Of a stretch of 64,000 nucleotides of DNA, positions 22,621-32,598 are shown in pieces. Each line of letters begins with the position of its first letter. Within the stretch, counting starts at the first letter, position 1. Under the pieces are notes generated by a model. It was not told the DNA's origin and did no database searches. It saw nothing but the letters and a program-made list of their open reading frames with translations. Where the stretch lies: NCBI GenBank assembly GCA_038400315.1, contig CP151667.1, positions 6,893,174 to 6,957,173 of the forward strand, written 5' to 3'. This DNA comes from Isosphaeraceae bacterium EP7 (GTDB lineage: Bacteria > Planctomycetota > Planctomycetia > Isosphaerales > Isosphaeraceae). The translations under genes were made by a program, and so were the position numbers.

Positions 22621-23163
22621 TCAGTTGCCGGCCGGGGTCAGCGAGATGCTGCCGCCGTTGGTGACTTCCGGGGGAGGGGGGACGTCGCCGGCCAGGGTGG
22701 CCGGGGCGATGGCACCCGGGGCGTAGGAGGACTGGGCGGCACCGTAGGCGGGAGCAGCCTGGGGAGCACCGTAGGCGGGGGCGGCCTGGGGGGCGGCGTA
22801 GGTGCCCTGGCCCGTGGCGTAGGTCACCGGGGCGACCGTGCCGCAGCCGGTGTCGCAACCTTTGTCCTTATGGCCCCAGACGCGCTTCTTCTTCAGCACG
22901 TACTCGTAGGTGTAGGTCTTGGGCTTGTGCTTCAGCAACCCGCAAAGCTTGGTCTTCAGGCCAAGGGAGGGAAGCTTGGCGCCGCAACCGCCGGTCTCGC
23001 AGCCCTGGGGGCTGGCGATGACGCTCTGAGCGGTGGGGATGGGGCCTTGGGCCGAGGCAATGCCGCAGGTGCTGCAGCCGTGCTCGAACAGACCGGCCGT
23101 GCTCACGCTGCTCATGCCGAGAGCGAGGGCCAAGCTAACGCCGAGGGTCAGGGGCTTCAACAT
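22621..23163 (-). CDS. Exported Cys-rich protein with Ala-Pro-Tyr repeats
   Basis: A 180-residue protein; ATG 23163 has AGGAG 11 nt upstream. A signal peptide (LTLGVSLALALGMSSVSTAG) is followed by three Cys clusters: CSTCG, CETGGCG and CDTGCG. A basic central block (KTYTYEYVLKKKRVWGHK) comes next, then tandem AAPAYGAPQ repeats and a Pro-rich end. Exported proteins with a KKKRVW block and Cys pairs recur in planctomycetes (from memory), possibly as structural cell-wall or surface proteins linked by disulfides, but this is inference. The frame also extends upstream to 23316 without a signal peptide, so the shorter start is preferred. It has its own terminator. Confidence 0.75.
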   Translation of the reverse strand: MLKPLTLGVSLALALGMSSVSTAGLFEHGCSTCGIASAQGPIPTAQSVIASPQGCETGGCGAKLPSLGLKTKLCGLLKHKPKTYTYEYVLKKKRVWGHKDKGCDTGCGTVAPVTYATGQGTYAAPQAAPAYGAPQAAPAYGAAQSSYAPGAIAPATLAGDVPPPPEVTNGGSISLTPAGN

Positions 23164-23688
23164 GGGAGACGTAACTCCTAAGCAAACGATCGTTACGAGG
23201 ACGACAATCCGGCCGGCCGGATGCCGAACCCGGCTAAATTCAAACCAGGGCATCAAGTGACAGCAGGTGTTCCCGACACCCGGGGCCTTGCGGCCCGACC
23301 ACCACTCCGACACCACCCAGTCGGTGCTCCCGAGTTCTCGCTTCAGGGTTACCGAGGCGAGCTAGACAGAGATATCGTCAGCCGGGCCCCGCCCCTTGAA
23401 CGCCCTTCCCGTTTTCTGCCAACGAGTTACAACGACGACTCGTGACGGTCGTCGGGGTTCCGGCGGCCCGGCAATCTGCGCAAGGAAGGCGGTCGCGACA
23501 ACCGCCACAACCCCCAAAGTCAACACAGGAAGGTCAACGCAACCATCAACCTTCACGCCGTCGGTTTCGTCGAGGGGCGACAGGTCGGGGCTTCCGGTCG
23601 ACGAGGACGGCCCCCGATGGTCTCGTCGCGGTTGCGAACGAGGCCATCGGGGGCCGTAGGACAGCTCGATCTCGACGATCCCTGGGCG
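23164..23688. other. 525-bp gap between two minus-strand genes
   Basis: Holds the terminator-like hairpin of the upstream glycosyltransferase gene (23607-23657) and presumably the promoter of the Cys-rich exported gene near 23200. No coding frame with convincing composition or start was seen. Confidence 0.5.
23607..23657 (-). terminator. Long hairpin after GT39-like gene
   Basis: ACGGCCCCCGATGG (23607-23620) pairs with CCATCGGGGGCCGT (23644-23657), and the loop adds CTCGT/ACGAG. It lies 32 bp beyond the stop. There is no T-run, so it may act as an mRNA 3' end stabiliser instead. Confidence 0.55.
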
Positions 23689-25527
23689 TCAGCGCCTGGT
23701 GGACGGGGTGTCCAGACCGGGGGCCTTCTCTGGGGGGGCTGTCGCCGTCGAGGCGGCGGCCGTCGGATTGACGCGCAGGAGGGTCAGTTCGTTGCGGTCG
23801 AGCCCCTCCTCCCGCATCAGCGGGGTGACCAGGCCGGCCAGCGCCCGCTCGAACTGGGCGTAGTCCTTGTTGCGGATCAGGAGATAAGGGGAAGCCTGGC
23901 CTCCCTCGCGGATCCACTTGACGAGCAGATCCTGCTCATTGCGGATGCGCACGACCGGGTCGAGGATCAGGCGGTTCTCCTTGGAGGCCTGCACCAGGTC
24001 GATCCCCTCGTTGTAGGTCGGCTGGCTGCCGGGGACGGGGGCGAGCTGGCGATCTCGCAGGTAAAACCAGAGGCCCTCGTCGAGTTCGTGGAAGAACATG
24101 ACGGTGCGGACGTCGGGCGGCAGGACCACGCCGAGCCGGTCGGCAAGCTGCCGGTGGCTGCGCAGGGGGTCTTCGCGGGGGGCGACGGCGCCGTAGGCGA
24201 CCAGGACGCCCAGGGTCATCGCGGCCACCAACGGGGCCAGGGCCAGGGCATTCGCCCCGCGGCGCCAGGTCCAGGCGCTCAGCACAATCAAGCAGGCGCA
24301 CGCCGCAGCCCCCGCCAGCGCCACGCCCAGATAGGCCGGCACCAATTGCGAGACGACCACCGGCGCGACGAGCACCGCGACGAATGGGATCACCCAGTGC
24401 AACTGGAGCAGGCGTCTGGCGGCCAGATTGGCGGGGCCCTCCTCGCGGGCGACCTGGCAAAGCCGCACCCACTCCTGGCCCGCCAGAAGCGCGGCGCCGG
24501 GCAGGCAGGGGACGTAGTAGTTGGGCTTGGCCACCTTCCAGAGGCAGAACATGGCCAGGTTGCCCAGGGTCCACCACCAGGCGAACCAGACCTTGGGCCG
24601 GCCCTCGCGGCCGCGATGCAGCAGCGGCACGATCAGGGCCGAGAAGGCGAGCAGGCCCCAGGGGAAGGTCATCCAGGGCCAGTCGACGGCCAGAATTTGC
24701 CGGGCCCTGGAATGGTGGATGCCCGCGGTCCCCGCCTTCTGGGCCATCTCCAGGTACCAGACCCGCGCCGCCATCGGGTCGGTCAGCGCGACGGGCACCG
24801 GCCAGCAGAGGGCCAGCAGTCCGAAGATGGCCATCCCCCAGCCGTCGGCCAGCCGCCGTAGCCCACGCCAGGGCTCGCCCAGGGCGATGACATAAGGGAT
24901 GACCGTCAGGGCGACGACCAGCAGGATGATCGGGCCCTTCGTCAGGATGCCCAGGCCCATCGCCGTGTACATCAGGAGCGACCAGCGGCGGCCGCCCGCC
25001 TGCTCCGGCAGGGCCTCGCCGGGCTCCGGCGGCCGGTCCCCGTGCAGCCTTCGCCACGCCGCATAGAGCGCCAGCGTCGCGAAGAACGCCAGCGGGCCAT
25101 CGTTGCCGGCCTGGCGCAGCTCGATGATGAAGAAGGACATCGACGTGAGCACCAGCCCCGAGGCCAGGCCCACCGCACGTCCCCCCAGCCTGCAGCCCAG
25201 GCCGTAGACGAGCCCGACCATGCCCAGGGCCGATAGCGCCCCGGGTAGTCGCACGATCACCTCGTCGCGGCGACCCGTCAGGGTCATCAACCCGGCGATC
25301 GTCCAACGCGGCAGGGGGGGCTTCTCCAGCCGCTTGCGCCCCTGGATCTCGGCGATCAGCCACCGGCCATGGTCGACCGTGTCGATCGCCTCGGCCGAGG
25401 CGCGCTGTTCGCGCTTACCCCAGAGGTCCATCGACCCCAAACTTCCCAGGAACGTGAGGCAGGCCAACACGCCCAGCAGCACTTCCGGGCCAAGGCGACG
25501 GACCCAATCCCTCGCGGCCATCGGCAT
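23689..25527 (-). CDS. GT39/ArnT-like membrane glycosyltransferase
   Basis: A 612-residue protein with about a dozen membrane helices. It starts at ATG 25527, which has GGAGGAG upstream; the frame extends 23 residues further without a ribosome site. Residues 25-75 contain the first periplasmic loop typical of lipid-linked sugar transferases (ArnT/PMT class), ending in RLEKPPLPRW; the KPPL-x-x-W motif is characteristic. The C-terminal 150 residues are a soluble extracytoplasmic domain. Such enzymes move a sugar from a polyprenyl-phosphate donor to lipid A, protein or glycan; the acceptor is not readable. The acidic residues normally found in loop 1 are not in the usual DE form here. It is transcribed alone. 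Confidence 0.8.
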   Translation of the reverse strand: MPMAARDWVRRLGPEVLLGVLACLTFLGSLGSMDLWGKREQRASAEAIDTVDHGRWLIAEIQGRKRLEKPPLPRWTIAGLMTLTGRRDEVIVRLPGALSALGMVGLVYGLGCRLGGRAVGLASGLVLTSMSFFIIELRQAGNDGPLAFFATLALYAAWRRLHGDRPPEPGEALPEQAGGRRWSLLMYTAMGLGILTKGPIILLVVALTVIPYVIALGEPWRGLRRLADGWGMAIFGLLALCWPVPVALTDPMAARVWYLEMAQKAGTAGIHHSRARQILAVDWPWMTFPWGLLAFSALIVPLLHRGREGRPKVWFAWWWTLGNLAMFCLWKVAKPNYYVPCLPGAALLAGQEWVRLCQVAREEGPANLAARRLLQLHWVIPFVAVLVAPVVVSQLVPAYLGVALAGAAACACLIVLSAWTWRRGANALALAPLVAAMTLGVLVAYGAVAPREDPLRSHRQLADRLGVVLPPDVRTVMFFHELDEGLWFYLRDRQLAPVPGSQPTYNEGIDLVQASKENRLILDPVVRIRNEQDLLVKWIREGGQASPYLLIRNKDYAQFERALAGLVTPLMREEGLDRNELTLLRVNPTAAASTATAPPEKAPGLDTPSTRR

Positions 25528-26155
25528 CGTCTCCTCCCTGGACCGGCGCAGCCGTCGCATCTCGTCAGGCCACCGATCGGGAGGCCCAGATTCCAAGTTC
25601 GCGACGCCTCCCAGGCCGACCGGCTCCTCCGGCCGACCGAGAGGCGCGGCACCTTACCGCAAGTCTCCCGATGCGACAATCCGGGTCTCGGCCGCGTCGC
25701 CGAGGCCGTGCATCGGGCCTCGATCAACGACGAGCCGAGCCCAGCACGAGCCCGAAGGAATTCGGAGAATTTCCGTTCGGGCCCGACCTCCCGGGACCCG
25801 GGCGGGTCCCACCTCGGGTGCCGATCTGCTCGGCTCGGGCCGACTTGCGCGTGCCGGGCCGGGCCCATCAGGCAAATCGGCGTGGACTTTCGTCAACGGG
25901 GCTGGCTGCATTGACACTTTCTCGGAAGATCGGGTATACCCCCGTTCGACGCCGCCCGAGGTGGGTCGATGGCATCGCCGACGAGGCGACGCCCGACGTC
26001 TCGGGCCCCCGGACCAAGGACGGGTCGCGGGCCGACTGCGGCGGGTTTGACGCTGATTCGGAAGAGACAGGCGAGTCTCGCAGCCGCGGGACGAGCATGG
26101 TTGCCGGGTCGGACAGGTTGCGACTCGGGTAGAACCCCAGGGAGGGGGCCGGCCC
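25528..26155. other. 628-bp divergent intergenic region
   Basis: Separates the minus-strand glycosyltransferase from the plus-strand acylation operon. The best promoter match (25911-25940) faces the operon and would leave a leader of about 205 nt. Several frames run through it on both strands, but none has a ribosome site or family features. Confidence 0.5.
25911..25940 (+). promoter_or_regulatory. Sigma-70-type promoter candidate for acylation operon
   Basis: An exact TTGACA (25911-25916) is followed after 18 bp by TATACC (25935-25940; four of six match TATAAT). It is one of very few exact -35 boxes in this GC-rich window. It lies about 215 bp before the MBOAT start. Confidence 0.4.
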
Positions 26156-27541
26156 ATGCGGATCGAGATCGAGCAATCCACGACGTTGCGGCCGGCGCCC
26201 CACCGTCGCTACTTCCCGATCCCCAACGCGGCCGGCCCGCTGGGCCGCTTCGCCCGTCTCTATGCGGACGAGCCGGCGAACTGTCGGCGAGACTGGCGGA
26301 AGTTCGCCGCGGTGGCCGCCAACCTCGGGCTGCTCCTGGCCGTCTTCCGGGCTTACCACGTCGAGGGGCGGGCCTTCCAGATCCTGGCCGCGCTGGGCTT
26401 CGCCGCGTGGCCGGTGCACTACCTGGCCCCCTTCGCCTGGAAGAAGCCGCTGTTCGTGGCCGCCTCGGTCGCGGGACTGGCGGCGGTCTTCGGCTGGTCG
26501 GTCGCCGCGGTGGTCCTGCCCGTCGCGGCGCTCCTGATCGGGGTCTGCTACCTGCCGCTGGCATGGAGTGCTCGCGCCGGCATCATCGCCGCGGCCGCGC
26601 TAGGCATGGCCCTGGTCCGGGGCGGGCTTGTCGGTGGCTCCCTGCCCGACGGGCTCTGGCCCGTGCTGGGCACCATGTTCATGTTCCGCATGATGATCTA
26701 TCTGTATGAGCTGAAGCACGCGAAGAAGCGCGAGTCGCTCGTCGACACGCTGAGCTACTTCTTCCTGCTGCCCAACTACTGCTTCCTCCACTTCCCGGTG
26801 GTCGACTACCGGACGATGCAGCGCGGGTACTTCTCGCGTGATATCCACTCGATCCAGCAGGCCGGGCTGGGGATGATCCTGCGGGGGACGGTGCAACTGC
26901 TGATGTACCGACTGGTGTACCACGGGCTCTTGATCTCGGCCGAGGAGGTGGCGGGGCCGGCGAGCCTGGCCGGCTACCTGGCGTGCAACTACCTGCTCTA
27001 TCTGAGGGTCTCGGGCCAGTTCCACGTCGCCTGCGGGATGCTGCACCTCTTCGGCTTCGCCCTGCCCGAGACGCACCACAACTACCTGCTCGCCAATAGC
27101 TTCACCGACTACTGGCGTCGCATCAACATCTACTGGAAAGACTTCATGGTGCGGCTGGTCTTCAACCCGGTCGCCTTCCGGCTGAAGCGTCGGCCGCAGT
27201 GGCAGGCGTTGGCGGCGGCCACGACGGTCGTCTTCGTGGTGACCTGGGCCCTGCACGCCTACCAGTCGTTCTGGCTGCGAGGGAGCTGGGGCCTGAGCCT
27301 TCCGGACTGCCTCTTCTGGGGCATCCTGGGCGTCCTCGTCCTGGTCAACGTCCAGCTTGACGCCCGCAGGCCGAGGCGGCGCACGGCCCCCGGATCGAGG
27401 CCGAGCCCGGCGGAATTCGCGCTCCGTGCGGCCAAGACGGCGGGCACGTTCGCGACGATCTGCATCCTCTGGTCGCTCTGGTCGAGCCCCAGCGTGGAGG
27501 CCTGGATGGGCCTCTGGCGCAGGGCATTGGGCGGGGCCTGA
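26156..27541 (+). CDS. MBOAT-family membrane O-acyltransferase
   Basis: A 461-residue multi-pass protein with GGGAGGGGG before the ATG. About ten membrane helices are visible. The MBOAT signature region NSFTDYWRRINIYWKDFM (314-331) matches the conserved (N/S)-F-x-x-(F/Y)-W-R-R-W-N block, and the catalytic His is H367 in TWALHAYQSFW. DltB, AlgI and PatA-like proteins of this family pass acyl groups across the membrane onto wall or extracellular polymers. It is the first gene of five on this strand, followed by two SGNH proteins, an adenylating enzyme and an acyltransferase. That context suggests acylation of an envelope glycan; the acyl group is unknown. Confidence 0.88.
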   Translation: MRIEIEQSTTLRPAPHRRYFPIPNAAGPLGRFARLYADEPANCRRDWRKFAAVAANLGLLLAVFRAYHVEGRAFQILAALGFAAWPVHYLAPFAWKKPLFVAASVAGLAAVFGWSVAAVVLPVAALLIGVCYLPLAWSARAGIIAAAALGMALVRGGLVGGSLPDGLWPVLGTMFMFRMMIYLYELKHAKKRESLVDTLSYFFLLPNYCFLHFPVVDYRTMQRGYFSRDIHSIQQAGLGMILRGTVQLLMYRLVYHGLLISAEEVAGPASLAGYLACNYLLYLRVSGQFHVACGMLHLFGFALPETHHNYLLANSFTDYWRRINIYWKDFMVRLVFNPVAFRLKRRPQWQALAAATTVVFVVTWALHAYQSFWLRGSWGLSLPDCLFWGILGVLVLVNVQLDARRPRRRTAPGSRPSPAEFALRAAKTAGTFATICILWSLWSSPSVEAWMGLWRRALGGA

Positions 27542-27590
27542 CGCACGCAAGGACGGCACGGGGCCAGCAATCCAAGCAGGTGACCACCGC

Positions 27591-28709
27591 ATGGCTCGGA
27601 ACATTCACCCCTCACGTCTGCTCGCCGCGGCCGGGCTGCTCGCCTTCGGGCTGGCTCCCGGCCGGCTCGTCCCCCCGCAGGCCCTGGCCGCACGCGACGC
27701 GATGCGCAGCGACGCCATCAACGCAACCGACTACGACCGGATGGAACGCGGCTACTACGAGCAGATCCTCGATGCCGGCCGCGACCCGGGCTCGCACCCC
27801 GACGCCGACGCGGCCAGGCATGCCGAGGCACCCCCCTTCGACGCCGGCCCGCTGGCCGACGTCGTGCCGGACGCCCGCCAGTACGTGCTCAAGCCAGCCC
27901 TCTCCATCGAGCACTGGGGCGTGCGATGGTCGACCAACACGCTGGGCATGCGCGACCGCGAATACGCGGCGGCCAAGCCCCAGGGCACGTTCCGCGTGGC
28001 CCTGATGGGCGACTCGATCACGTCGGGCTGGGGTGTCGACGACGGCCGCGGATATGAGCCCATCTTAGAGCGAGAATGGGACGCACGCTCGGTTGAGGGC
28101 GGCGGCCCGCGCGTCGAGGTCCTCAACTTCGCCGTCCCGGGCCATGCTCCCGGCCAGCGCTGGGAGCACGCCAGGCGGGTGGCGCTGGCCACCATGCCCG
28201 ACACGGTCATCTACCAGGCAACGCTGGCCGACCTGGGCTGGGACGAGCGTCGGCTGCGTGTGATGCTCCCCCGAGGCCAGGGCTGGGACGCCCCCGCATA
28301 CCGCCAGACGCTGGAGCATGCGGGCGCCCGACCCGGGCAGGGCTCCGAGGCCTATAAGCGGCTGCTGCGCCCCATCCGCATCCAGATCCTCGAGGGGGTC
28401 TATCGCGAGATCGTCGCCGGCTGCCGCGAGAAGGGCCTCTCCTGCGCCTGGGTCTTGATCCCGCGCGTGGGACGGCCGGGCAGCCGCGCCGAGCGCGAGC
28501 AGATGGTGGACCTGGCCCGCGCCGCGGGGTTCTCGCCGGTCCTCGACCTTTCGGACGTCTATGACGGCGTGCCGCCTGAGTCGATCGCCATCAAGCCGTC
28601 CGACTACCACCCCAACGCCGACGGGCACGCACGCCTGGCCCGGCGCATCGACGGGGCCATCTGGGGCCACGTCGCCGCAAGACTCAAGGACGCGGGAGGC
28701 GACCGATGA
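27591..28709 (+). CDS. SGNH/GDSL hydrolase-like protein (exported)
   Basis: A 372-residue protein starting at ATG 27591 with an N-terminal signal or anchor (RLLAAAGLLAFGLAPG). SGNH block I is ALMGDSITSGWGV, with nucleophile Ser142. The C-terminal Asp/His block is SDYHPNADGH (D338, H340). The oxyanion Gly/Asn blocks are less clear. In MBOAT pathways a partner SGNH protein (such as DltD or AlgX) completes acyl transfer outside the membrane. The stop overlaps the start of the next SGNH gene in ATGA, which implies coupled translation. The two proteins share order and length and are likely paralogues. Confidence 0.82.
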   Translation: MARNIHPSRLLAAAGLLAFGLAPGRLVPPQALAARDAMRSDAINATDYDRMERGYYEQILDAGRDPGSHPDADAARHAEAPPFDAGPLADVVPDARQYVLKPALSIEHWGVRWSTNTLGMRDREYAAAKPQGTFRVALMGDSITSGWGVDDGRGYEPILEREWDARSVEGGGPRVEVLNFAVPGHAPGQRWEHARRVALATMPDTVIYQATLADLGWDERRLRVMLPRGQGWDAPAYRQTLEHAGARPGQGSEAYKRLLRPIRIQILEGVYREIVAGCREKGLSCAWVLIPRVGRPGSRAEREQMVDLARAAGFSPVLDLSDVYDGVPPESIAIKPSDYHPNADGHARLARRIDGAIWGHVAARLKDAGGDR

Positions 28710-29908
28710 CGACCGCGACCGGAACGAAGGGCCCGACTCTGACCCGCATCGCCCTGAGCGCACTGCTGCTGGCCGCCGGTGTGGCCCCCCTGCCCCACGG
28801 CTGGGCCTCGGCACGCGTTGCACGCGACAACGCCCGCTCGACGGAGCTCAACCGGGCCGACCGCAAGCGCGACGCGGGCGGCTATTACGAGGGCCTCATC
28901 GGCGGCGACGGATCGCCGGGCGCACGCGACGAGCTGGCCTTGACCCTGATGGGCAAGCCGGCCAACTGGACCCGATTCGGCGATGCCGGGGTCTCGCGGC
29001 AGATGCCCGCCGACTACCTCCAGTTCGAGTTGATCCCGAACGTCAATCGCACCCTCTTCGGCCGCCGCTTCACCACCAACGGGGCGGGCCTTCGCGACCT
29101 GCCGACGACCGAGGCGAAGCCCGACGGCATCATCCGCGTCGCCCTGCTCGGCTCGTCGATGGACATGGGCTGGGGAGTGGGCGACGACCAGACGTATGAA
29201 AACCTGTTCGAGAACTGGCTCAACGCCCACGCGGCGCGACGGGGCCTTCCCCGTCGGTTCGAGGTGCTCAACTTCGCCGTGGCCGCCTACAGCCCGGCCC
29301 AGCGGCTGGAGAGCTATCGTCGCAAGGCCGCCGCGTTCAAGCCCGACCTCGTCTTCTACTCGGTGACGATGCTCGACCCGCGCCTGACGGAGATCCACCT
29401 CCGGAGCCTGCTGCTGAATCGCGTCCCGCTGAGAGACGACTTCCTGGTCCGCGCGCTGGCCTCGACCGGGCTGACCGAGGCCGACTTCCGGCTCGACGCC
29501 CGCGGCAAGCTGGTCGACAAGAGTTCCGTGAAGGATAAGATCCGCGACCAGTGCTGGCCGATCGCCGACGGCGCCCTCGGGGCGCTCGCCGCGGAGTGCC
29601 GGGCCGCGGACATCCCGCTCGCCTGCCTGATCATCCCCCGGGTGGGCAAGTCGGACGAGCCCGGCACGCGCGACGAGGCGGTGGCCCGTCACTCGGGCAT
29701 CGCCGCGCACCACGCCGTCCCGGTGATCGACCTGTCCGCGTCGTTCGACCGCCATGACCCCCGGGAGCTGGAGATCGCCTCCTGGGACGACCACCCCAAC
29801 GCCGCCGGACACCGCCGCCTCTTCCTCGGCCTGGCCCGCGCTGTCGCCGCGCAGCCTGAGCTGTACCGCTCGCTGTTCGACGCCTCTCCCCCGCCCCCCA
29901 GACCCTAA
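28706..29908 (+). CDS. Second SGNH hydrolase-like protein (DltD/AlgX-like role)
   Basis: A 400-residue protein with a signal or anchor near residues 10-35. Block I reads ALLGSSMDMGWGVGDD with Gly149-Ser150-Ser151, the GSS form seen in DltD/AlgX-type proteins rather than GDS. The C-terminal SWDDHPNAAGH carries D361/D362 and H363. It shares with the preceding paralogue the central LNFAVAAYSPAQRLE segment. Start and previous stop overlap by four bases. The pair may form a heterodimer or act on different acceptors (inference). It is followed after 46 bp by the adenylating enzyme. Confidence 0.82.
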   Translation: MTTATGTKGPTLTRIALSALLLAAGVAPLPHGWASARVARDNARSTELNRADRKRDAGGYYEGLIGGDGSPGARDELALTLMGKPANWTRFGDAGVSRQMPADYLQFELIPNVNRTLFGRRFTTNGAGLRDLPTTEAKPDGIIRVALLGSSMDMGWGVGDDQTYENLFENWLNAHAARRGLPRRFEVLNFAVAAYSPAQRLESYRRKAAAFKPDLVFYSVTMLDPRLTEIHLRSLLLNRVPLRDDFLVRALASTGLTEADFRLDARGKLVDKSSVKDKIRDQCWPIADGALGALAAECRAADIPLACLIIPRVGKSDEPGTRDEAVARHSGIAAHHAVPVIDLSASFDRHDPRELEIASWDDHPNAAGHRRLFLGLARAVAAQPELYRSLFDASPPPPRP

Positions 29909-29954
29909 CCCCTCGACGAGAAGGCGCGGGGCCCGCGCCGGCAAGGAAGCGACC

Positions 29955-31553
<1,599 letters not shown>

Positions 31554-31602
31554 GCCGGACGGAACCAGACGGCTCGACACGGAAGCGCGAGGGGCCCCGG
31601 CC

Positions 31603-32598
31603 ATGACGATTCGGCATGCGTTGACCTGGAAGTGCGCGTTCTACGACGTGCTGCTGCCGCTGCTCAGGCGGACGAGCCCGGCGCGGGCCGACCTGGCGCT
31701 CTCCGCGCTGGGCCGTCTCGTCTCGAACTTCCGCCCGATGCATCGGCGGCAGTTGGCCGGGGCGCTGGTCAAGGCTCGCGAGGCCCTGGGGGCCGACTGG
31801 TCGCCGGCCGACGTCCGCGCCGAGATGGACGACAACCTCCCCCGGTTCCTGGCGCGAGACTACCTCCTCGGCGGGCCGGCCGACTCGGGCTGGGGCGGCC
31901 GGTTCGAGGTCGAAGGGGCCGACGTGCTGGCCGAGGCCACCGCCGGCGGCCGCGGCTGCATCCTCGTCGGCAGCCACCTGGGGGCCTACCTCCCCGCGGT
32001 CCGCTGGCTCTGCGAACAAGGTCCCCCCGTCCGGCTGCTCATCCAGCGGCCCAAGCATGTCTCCGGCGAGCTCTCCCGCTGGTTCGACCGCACCGGCCCG
32101 CACCCGCAGTCGGGCTTCTTCCTGCGCCGGGGGCTCGACGCGGGGACGTCCGCCACGCGCGTCCTGGCGGCGAGGTCGGCGCTGCGCGACGGCCTGTCGA
32201 TCTACATGACCGGCGATGTCCCCTGGGACGGCCCCAACGCCCGCCCCGCGCGGTTCCTGGGGCGCGACTTCCGCCTCCTGTCCATCTGGACCGACCTGGC
32301 CGTGCTGACCGGGGCGCCGGTGGTGCTGGCCTTCGGCTCGCACATGCCCGACGGCCGGTTCTCCCTCAGGTTCGAGGGCCTGGGCCGGCTGGCCGCGGGC
32401 GACGAGACCTGGGCGCTGGCCCGCTATTGCCATCGCCTCGACGCCGAGATCGCCGCCCACCCGGCCGACGCAGTCGCCCACCTGACCTGGCCCTGCTACA
32501 CCCAGCCGGCACCCTCGACGCGCGTGCCCCGACCGCACCGCGGGAGGACCAAGACCGCACCACGCCTGGCAGGAACCGCGGCCGGACAGGCCCACTAA
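31603..32598 (+). CDS. LpxL/HtrB-like lysophospholipid acyltransferase family protein
   Basis: A 331-residue protein with GAGGGG before ATG 31603. Overall layout follows the bacterial lipid A acyltransferase family: an N-terminal helix, a central GCILVGSHLGAYLPAVRWL segment, MTGDVPWDG, and APVVLAFGSHMPDGRFSLRF. The catalytic motif of this family is H-x4-D/E; here it is H125 followed by Leu at 130, so the acidic partner is missing or moved. The last 35 residues are a basic Arg/Pro/Thr tail. It may act on lipid A-like or polymer-linked acyl groups in the same pathway, or have become a binding protein. Confidence 0.72.
   Translation: MTIRHALTWKCAFYDVLLPLLRRTSPARADLALSALGRLVSNFRPMHRRQLAGALVKAREALGADWSPADVRAEMDDNLPRFLARDYLLGGPADSGWGGRFEVEGADVLAEATAGGRGCILVGSHLGAYLPAVRWLCEQGPPVRLLIQRPKHVSGELSRWFDRTGPHPQSGFFLRRGLDAGTSATRVLAARSALRDGLSIYMTGDVPWDGPNARPARFLGRDFRLLSIWTDLAVLTGAPVVLAFGSHMPDGRFSLRFEGLGRLAAGDETWALARYCHRLDAEIAAHPADAVAHLTWPCYTQPAPSTRVPRPHRGRTKTAPRLAGTAAGQAH

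Follow-up and report, generated by a model that had tools for sequence, protein, structure and literature searches.

A five-gene operon at positions 26156 to 32598 of a 64,000-nucleotide stretch of the genome of Isosphaeraceae bacterium EP7 (here called the window, i.e., the whole stretch of DNA that was analysed) encodes a membrane-bound O-acyltransferase (MBOAT), two SGNH proteins, a stand-alone adenylating enzyme and an LpxL-like protein. Our analysis indicates, with a probability of about 0.6, that this operon is one half of a carrier-fed, two-locus MBOAT-SGNH pathway that transfers prolyl-derived (pyrroline- or pyrrole-2-carboxyl) groups onto an exported acceptor, probably a polysaccharide. 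An earlier note on this DNA had described a Dlt-like acylation operon without a carrier protein and had left two explanations, a carrier encoded elsewhere or the use of coenzyme A (CoA). Of these, the first is likely to be correct. The host genome (G000) is nearly complete (7.2 Mb), its close relatives are Isosphaeraceae, and the operon starts at position 6919329 of its contig C1 (C1:6919329).

All five open reading frames (ORFs) were confirmed as the earlier note had given them; they lie on the plus strand and either overlap or are separated by ~45 to 50 bases. The MBOAT (26156..27541; 461 amino acids [aa]) had neither a Pfam match nor a sequence match in the PDB. Its AlphaFold model (pLDDT 81, pTM 0.79) was compared with the PDB using Foldseek, which placed DltB, HHAT and PORCN on top with a probability of 1.00, and because the predicted structure matches these three proteins best, its designation as a membrane acyltransferase is correct. 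The protein carries the motifs YWRRIN and TWALHAYQ; the second MBOAT motif contains Asn (YWRRIN), with the universal His retained, and His367 is invariant among the homologues, as expected for a DltB-like fold with a catalytic His. The two SGNH/GDSL proteins, SGNH1 (27591..28709; 372 aa; GDSI and DxHPN) and SGNH2 (28706..29908; 400 aa; G[AS]S..DMGWGV and DDHPN), have the catalytic motifs GDS or G[AS]S plus D.HPN, so that the pairing of an MBOAT with SGNH partners is present. In Pfam, both match only PF13472, and thus they are not of the DltD type; SGNH1 resembles the SGNH domain that MBOATs of other phyla carry as a fusion.

Neither strand of the 64-kb window yielded a carrier-like ORF at E values up to 10, using both general and system-specific carrier models, and a carrier hidden inside the operon was thereby ruled out. 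The sequence of the adenylating enzyme (29955..31553, plus strand; 532 aa) stops after the AMP-binding_C domain, with no fused carrier domain. The earlier note's observation that the carrier is neither in the operon nor part of the enzyme therefore holds, and the carrier ORF on either strand that it had named as counterevidence was looked for and not seen. It had also proposed a comparison with related operons. The MBOAT was present in 44 of 45 Isosphaeraceae genomes, and 40 fetched regions yielded 30 operons with MBOAT, SGNH and adenylating enzyme genes. These 30 homologous operons share their gene order, and the arrangement is more than chance. SGNH2 was found in all 30, while SGNH1 was absent from 11; neither a carrier nor a dehydrogenase occurred in any of them (0/30 each). 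Since no operon of the family contains a carrier, its absence is a fixed trait of the Isosphaeraceae and not an accident of one genome. The adenylating enzymes of the family formed a single clade with a support of 100/100. Several Isosphaeraceae have additional MBOAT and SGNH pairs in unrelated contexts, which come with neither a ligase nor an LpxL-like gene (L048, L055, L059, L071, L080 and L084).

The adenylating enzyme is predicted from its sequence to be an L-proline:carrier ligase. It matches PF00501 and PF13193 (AMP-binding and C-terminal domain) and passes the cut-off of TIGR01733. Its best single-domain match in the PDB, with 166 bits over the core, was the L-proline:carrier ligase PltF; PigI came next, and the best DltA reached 100 bits. 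At whole length, PltF was outscored only by multi-module gramicidin synthase chains, in which two domains are summed. The specificity code, for which we took the ten positions to follow the numbering of the GrsA Phe domain, reads DLFYLALVCK, compared with DLLYLALVCK in PltF (9 of 10 positions equal in an alignment read by eye). This code is conserved in Isosphaeraceae and largely so in other phyla. The DltA equivalog model TIGR01734 gave 272.3 bits, below half of its cut-off of 559.85. Hence, of the label "Dlt-like", the MBOAT/SGNH acylation operon with an enzyme of the carrier-loading type stood, but its DltA flavour did not.

Outside the Isosphaeraceae, homologues of the MBOAT with ~40 to 49% identity were found in Pseudomonadota, Acidobacteriota, Gemmatimonadota, Hydrogenedentota, Rhodothermota, Myxococcota, Chloroflexota and other Planctomycetota. 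Across at least eight phyla, most complete loci have the MBOAT (usually fused to an SGNH domain), a carrier of 83 to 90 aa, the same ligase and a dehydrogenase next to each other. The carriers of these relatives have the consensus EFLPGEDPxxLTxxTPLISGGILDSIATLKLV, and the best PDB matches of their profile were carriers of pyrrole pathways (PltL, PigG and others), followed by DltC. The dehydrogenase of the cassettes is an acyl-CoA-dehydrogenase-like enzyme, with AnaB as the top PDB match, next to a Pseudoalteromonas enzyme and PigA. Flavin halogenases closest to PltA/Mpy16 are encoded near the cassette in two uncultured planctomycetes (L231:12995-15001 and L232:7041-8333) and one acidobacterium (L159:2974-4293), and both planctomycete cassettes also contain a methyltransferase gene. 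Among the PDB entries matched by these proteins, we take 6cxt to be Bmp1/Bmp3, 2my5 to be HrmL and 5buk to be Mpy16. The presence of a PltA-type halogenase suggests that a pyrrole is the carried group in those lineages. In a sample of 246 Planctomycetota (thresholds E<1e-140 for the ligase and E<1e-30 for the carrier), the ligase was found in five genomes, and the carrier and the dehydrogenase in the same five; one further genome (G247) had a carrier at 6e-28 and no ligase at the threshold. Four of the five genomes are from outside the Isosphaeraceae, and in them all parts of the cassette are contiguous. The simplest history is that of a single ancestral cassette, which was later split in the Isosphaeraceae lineage; a tree of the carriers, whose sequences are too short to show one origin, does not add to this.

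In the host genome, the cassette carrier profile identified a gene for a carrier of 84 aa at C1:1841696-1841938 on the minus strand (E 3.6e-35; Ser in GGILDSIS), whose sequence includes ...DYILKTFLPGEDPSELTDETPLITGGILDSISTLKLV... This gene is ~5.1 Mb from the operon and 8 kb from the gene of a predicted flavin-dependent prolyl-carrier dehydrogenase (C1:1849931-1851073), which was assigned by its PDB matches AnaB and PigA and by PigA and RedW as its best NCBIfam models. A gene for polysaccharide export (Poly_export) lies between the two, and carrier and dehydrogenase genes are linked in several other genera too. Each of the 45 Isosphaeraceae genomes had one strong, full-length match to the carrier profile; G012 and G025 had one additional weaker or partial match each. 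The dehydrogenase was found in a single copy in 40 of the 45 genomes (E<1e-100), and the remaining five are drafts, four of them less than 90% complete. The carrier looks dedicated to the pathway, although in relatives it is frequently a neighbour of ornithine-lipid genes. It gave 30.4 bits with the DltC model (cut-off 68) and just missed the general model PF00550 (20.1 bits; cut-off 20.8), which illustrates that a carrier can look absent when it scores slightly too low with the standard Pfam model. Five free acyl carrier proteins (ACPs) that PF00550 had found were set aside as partners of the ligase, because the system-specific profile gave only AcpP as a weak second match in the host genome (E 0.005).

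Sequence and predicted structure directly support the gene content, the carrier and dehydrogenase in trans, the descent that these share with the contiguous cassettes of other lineages, the proline-type code and the MBOAT fold. From these genes we infer the reactions, the degree of oxidation and the acceptor as follows. The ligase (29955-31553) would convert L-proline to prolyl-AMP and load it onto the type II carrier supplied in trans. Oxidation of the prolyl group on the carrier by the dehydrogenase would then give a thioester of the pyrroline- or pyrrole-2-carboxyl type, the latter being more likely. At the cytoplasmic face, the MBOAT would take the acyl group off the carrier, as DltB does, and the SGNH proteins would hand it over to an acceptor outside the cytoplasm, for which a polysaccharide hydroxyl is the most likely candidate. 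A polysaccharide is the probable acceptor because polysaccharide genes flank some of the relatives' cassettes and the export gene is near the carrier gene. It is also possible, if somewhat short of an even chance, that we see a widespread and hitherto undescribed envelope modification, in which pyrrole-2-carboxyl groups, with halogenation and methylation in some lineages, are assembled on a carrier in the manner of pyoluteorin or prodigiosin synthesis and transferred via MBOAT-SGNH onto an exported polysaccharide, with the Isosphaeraceae having split the system into two loci and added the LpxL-like protein.

Several observations weigh against the carrier-fed prolyl pathway. The acyl-shuttle motif FxYxxF, described for PatA and DltX (PMC12148441), was present in none of 121 MBOAT homologues. 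No halogenase gene was seen in the fetched Isosphaeraceae loci, and some of the relatives' cassettes are not near polysaccharide genes. The dehydrogenase stayed under the curated cut-offs of both PigA (441.7 versus 500 bits) and RedW (407.8 versus 650 bits), so that the oxidation may involve either two or four electrons, and AnaB, its top PDB match, halts at the pyrroline. The product of AnaB is a pyrroline-5-carboxyl-carrier (PMC3252866) and that of PigA a pyrrolyl-2-carboxyl-carrier (PMC6667630). Lastly, the carrier of the host genome (match at L226:5688-5939) exceeds the cut-off of NCBIfam NF052616 (ACP_for_OlsHI, "ornithine lipid biosynthesis acyl carrier protein"; 141.9 bits, cut-off 130), and olsH lies close to the carrier gene in about 13 of 20 Isosphaeraceae genomes, mostly tail to tail.

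The latter two points would fit a carrier that serves as the ACP of OlsH/OlsI in ornithine lipid synthesis in Isosphaeraceae, with the ligase using another carrier or CoA, and the acyl donor of OlsI was indeed left open in the study of OlsH/OlsI in Singulisphaera acidiphila (PMC12493201). That study, however, tested no carrier, and the ornithine-lipid name of NF052616 seems to be positional and possibly misleading. Where olsH and the carrier gene are adjacent, they are mostly convergent and thus do not form a single operon. OlsH itself was detected neither in the host genome at E<1e-150, in a sample that held no positive control, nor within ~9 kb around the carrier gene; a protein of another genome (G007) scored 947 bits with the model used in that search. 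Moreover, four other planctomycetes and some 30 loci from other phyla have the carrier together with the ligase and the MBOAT, and in those other phyla its company is not OlsH; within the family, every genome has this carrier as its sole strong match of the type. We therefore regard the ornithine-lipid function as unlikely, and the name that ties this family to ornithine lipids is called into question; in relatives that have OlsH, the carrier may conceivably play a double role. The carrier of an MBOAT/ligase cassette in a Rhodocyclaceae genome (L137:11483-11737) reached 117.8 bits with NF052616, close to the cut-off.

The remaining alternatives concern the group that is transferred, its destination and its donor. 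A plain L-prolyl group, transferred as an aminoacyl ester while the dehydrogenase is idle or works for another pathway, would resemble Dlt, which transfers an unmodified amino acid (PMC12148441), and would agree with the lack of a dehydrogenase gene in the window operon and of a match in five draft genomes. We consider this quite unlikely, given that most complete loci from other phyla have the dehydrogenase gene in one contiguous stretch with the cassette, that the gene is kept in a single copy in 40 of the 45 genomes of the family and that it is near the carrier gene in the host genome; the incompleteness of four of the five drafts also speaks against it. It is very unlikely that the product is a lipid and not a glycan, i.e., that an aminoacylated (AlmEFG-like) or acylated lipid is made by the ligase together with the carrier and the LpxL-like protein, and is then finished by the MBOAT and the SGNH proteins. 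Ligase, carrier and an LPLAT-type protein are the reported gene set for glycine modification of lipopolysaccharide (PMC3783018), and the operon of the family has the LpxL-like gene as a fixed component, but the protein lacks the acidic residue of HX4(D/E) and was found only in Isosphaeraceae, and the rest of the cassette works elsewhere without it. Finally, the ligase might make an acyl-CoA or aminoacyl-CoA for direct use by the MBOAT, with no carrier involved. Acyl-CoA is the donor for most MBOATs (PMC10213974) and the operon has no carrier; still, the ligase belongs to the type that loads amino acids onto carriers, as its TIGR01733 and PltF matches indicate, and its homologues in other phyla adjoin a dedicated carrier that is kept in 45 of 45 genomes of the family. 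This makes the CoA option of the earlier note extremely improbable, and its other option, a carrier encoded elsewhere, now has a candidate gene in trans.

We file the operon under MBOAT-SGNH acylation, as a variant that receives its acyl group from a carrier pathway of the proline type, Dlt-like in outline but outside the Dlt systems proper. It shares with DltABCD an amino-acid ligase, a type II carrier, an MBOAT and an SGNH protein, but differs in its proline-type ligase, the added dehydrogenase, the distribution over two loci, the missing FxYxxF shuttle, the PF13472-type SGNH proteins and a carrier that is far below the DltC cut-offs and not encoded in the operon. The best solved relatives of ligase, carrier and dehydrogenase belong to PltF/PltL/PltE, PigI/PigG/PigA and AnaC/AnaD/AnaB, and some relatives share a PltA-type halogenase with such type II proline-to-pyrrole pathways; here, however, the recipient of the acyl group is apparently MBOAT-SGNH, where those pathways supply a polyketide synthase or a small-molecule sugar. 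Acetylation of the PatA/PatB and AlgI/AlgJ type likewise uses an MBOAT plus SGNH pair for extracytoplasmic acylation, but with acetyl-CoA and a C-terminal FxYxxF Tyr (PMC12148441), where the present system has a carrier and no such motif. AlmEFG, which adds glycine to Vibrio lipid A, also combines a ligase, a carrier and an LpxL-type transferase (PMC3783018), whereas here the ligase is of the proline type, MBOAT and SGNH proteins are present and the LpxL-like protein is without HX4(D/E). OlsH/OlsI/OlsG are linked to our system by the presumed-ACP family of NCBI, which includes this carrier, and by the neighbourhood of the genes in many Isosphaeraceae.

According to reviews, no MBOAT other than DltB is known to be supplied with its acyl group by a carrier protein (PMC10213974), and MBOAT/SGNH pathways other than Dlt are without a carrier (PMC12148441). 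If the prolyl pathway is real, it would be a second, chemically different carrier-fed MBOAT case after Dlt, with representatives in eight phyla or more, and would link the decoration of the cell envelope with a chemistry that belongs to natural products (proline to pyrrole). Within open-licence papers, we found nothing on an MBOAT with a prolyl carrier or pyrrole-2-carboxyl group, which is not proof of novelty. Since Singulisphaera acidiphila has both loci and gene deletion has been published for it (PMC12493201), the idea is directly testable.

The LpxL-like protein (31603..32598, plus strand; 331 aa) matched Lip_A_acyltrans (PF03279) marginally, with 22.4 bits at a cut-off of 22.3. Its gene was present in 27 of the 30 Isosphaeraceae operons, the other three being interrupted by a contig end, and thus in 27 of 27 with complete downstream sequence. 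In all 25 sequences compared, including a paralogue in L087, His125 of the HX4(D/E) motif is invariant and the acidic residue is replaced by I, L or V. The protein, whose presence the earlier note had called unusual, is therefore a constant part of the operon in this family, but one without the catalytic acid of LpxL. No such gene was detected outside the Isosphaeraceae with a clean model; matches beside ligases in other phyla lay out of frame and were artefacts of a model that was based on ORFs extended too far. Our best guess, which rests on a loose analogy with AlmG, is a family-specific addition that may act as a second, noncanonical acyltransferase for the carrier-bound acyl group. The paralogue (L087:6617-7838, plus strand; about position 1724600 of C1 in the host genome) is directly 3' of a small ACP gene.

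Upstream of the operon, the window contains a gene for a GT-C type (PMT-like) glycosyltransferase (23689-25596, minus strand) and one for a small secreted protein (22621-23316, minus strand), both of which are kept as neighbours in many genomes of the family; a functional link of the two genes to the operon is possible. In addition, ARAGORN predicted a tRNA-Ile gene at 1465-1537 on the plus strand with the anticodon AAT, which is unusual for bacteria.

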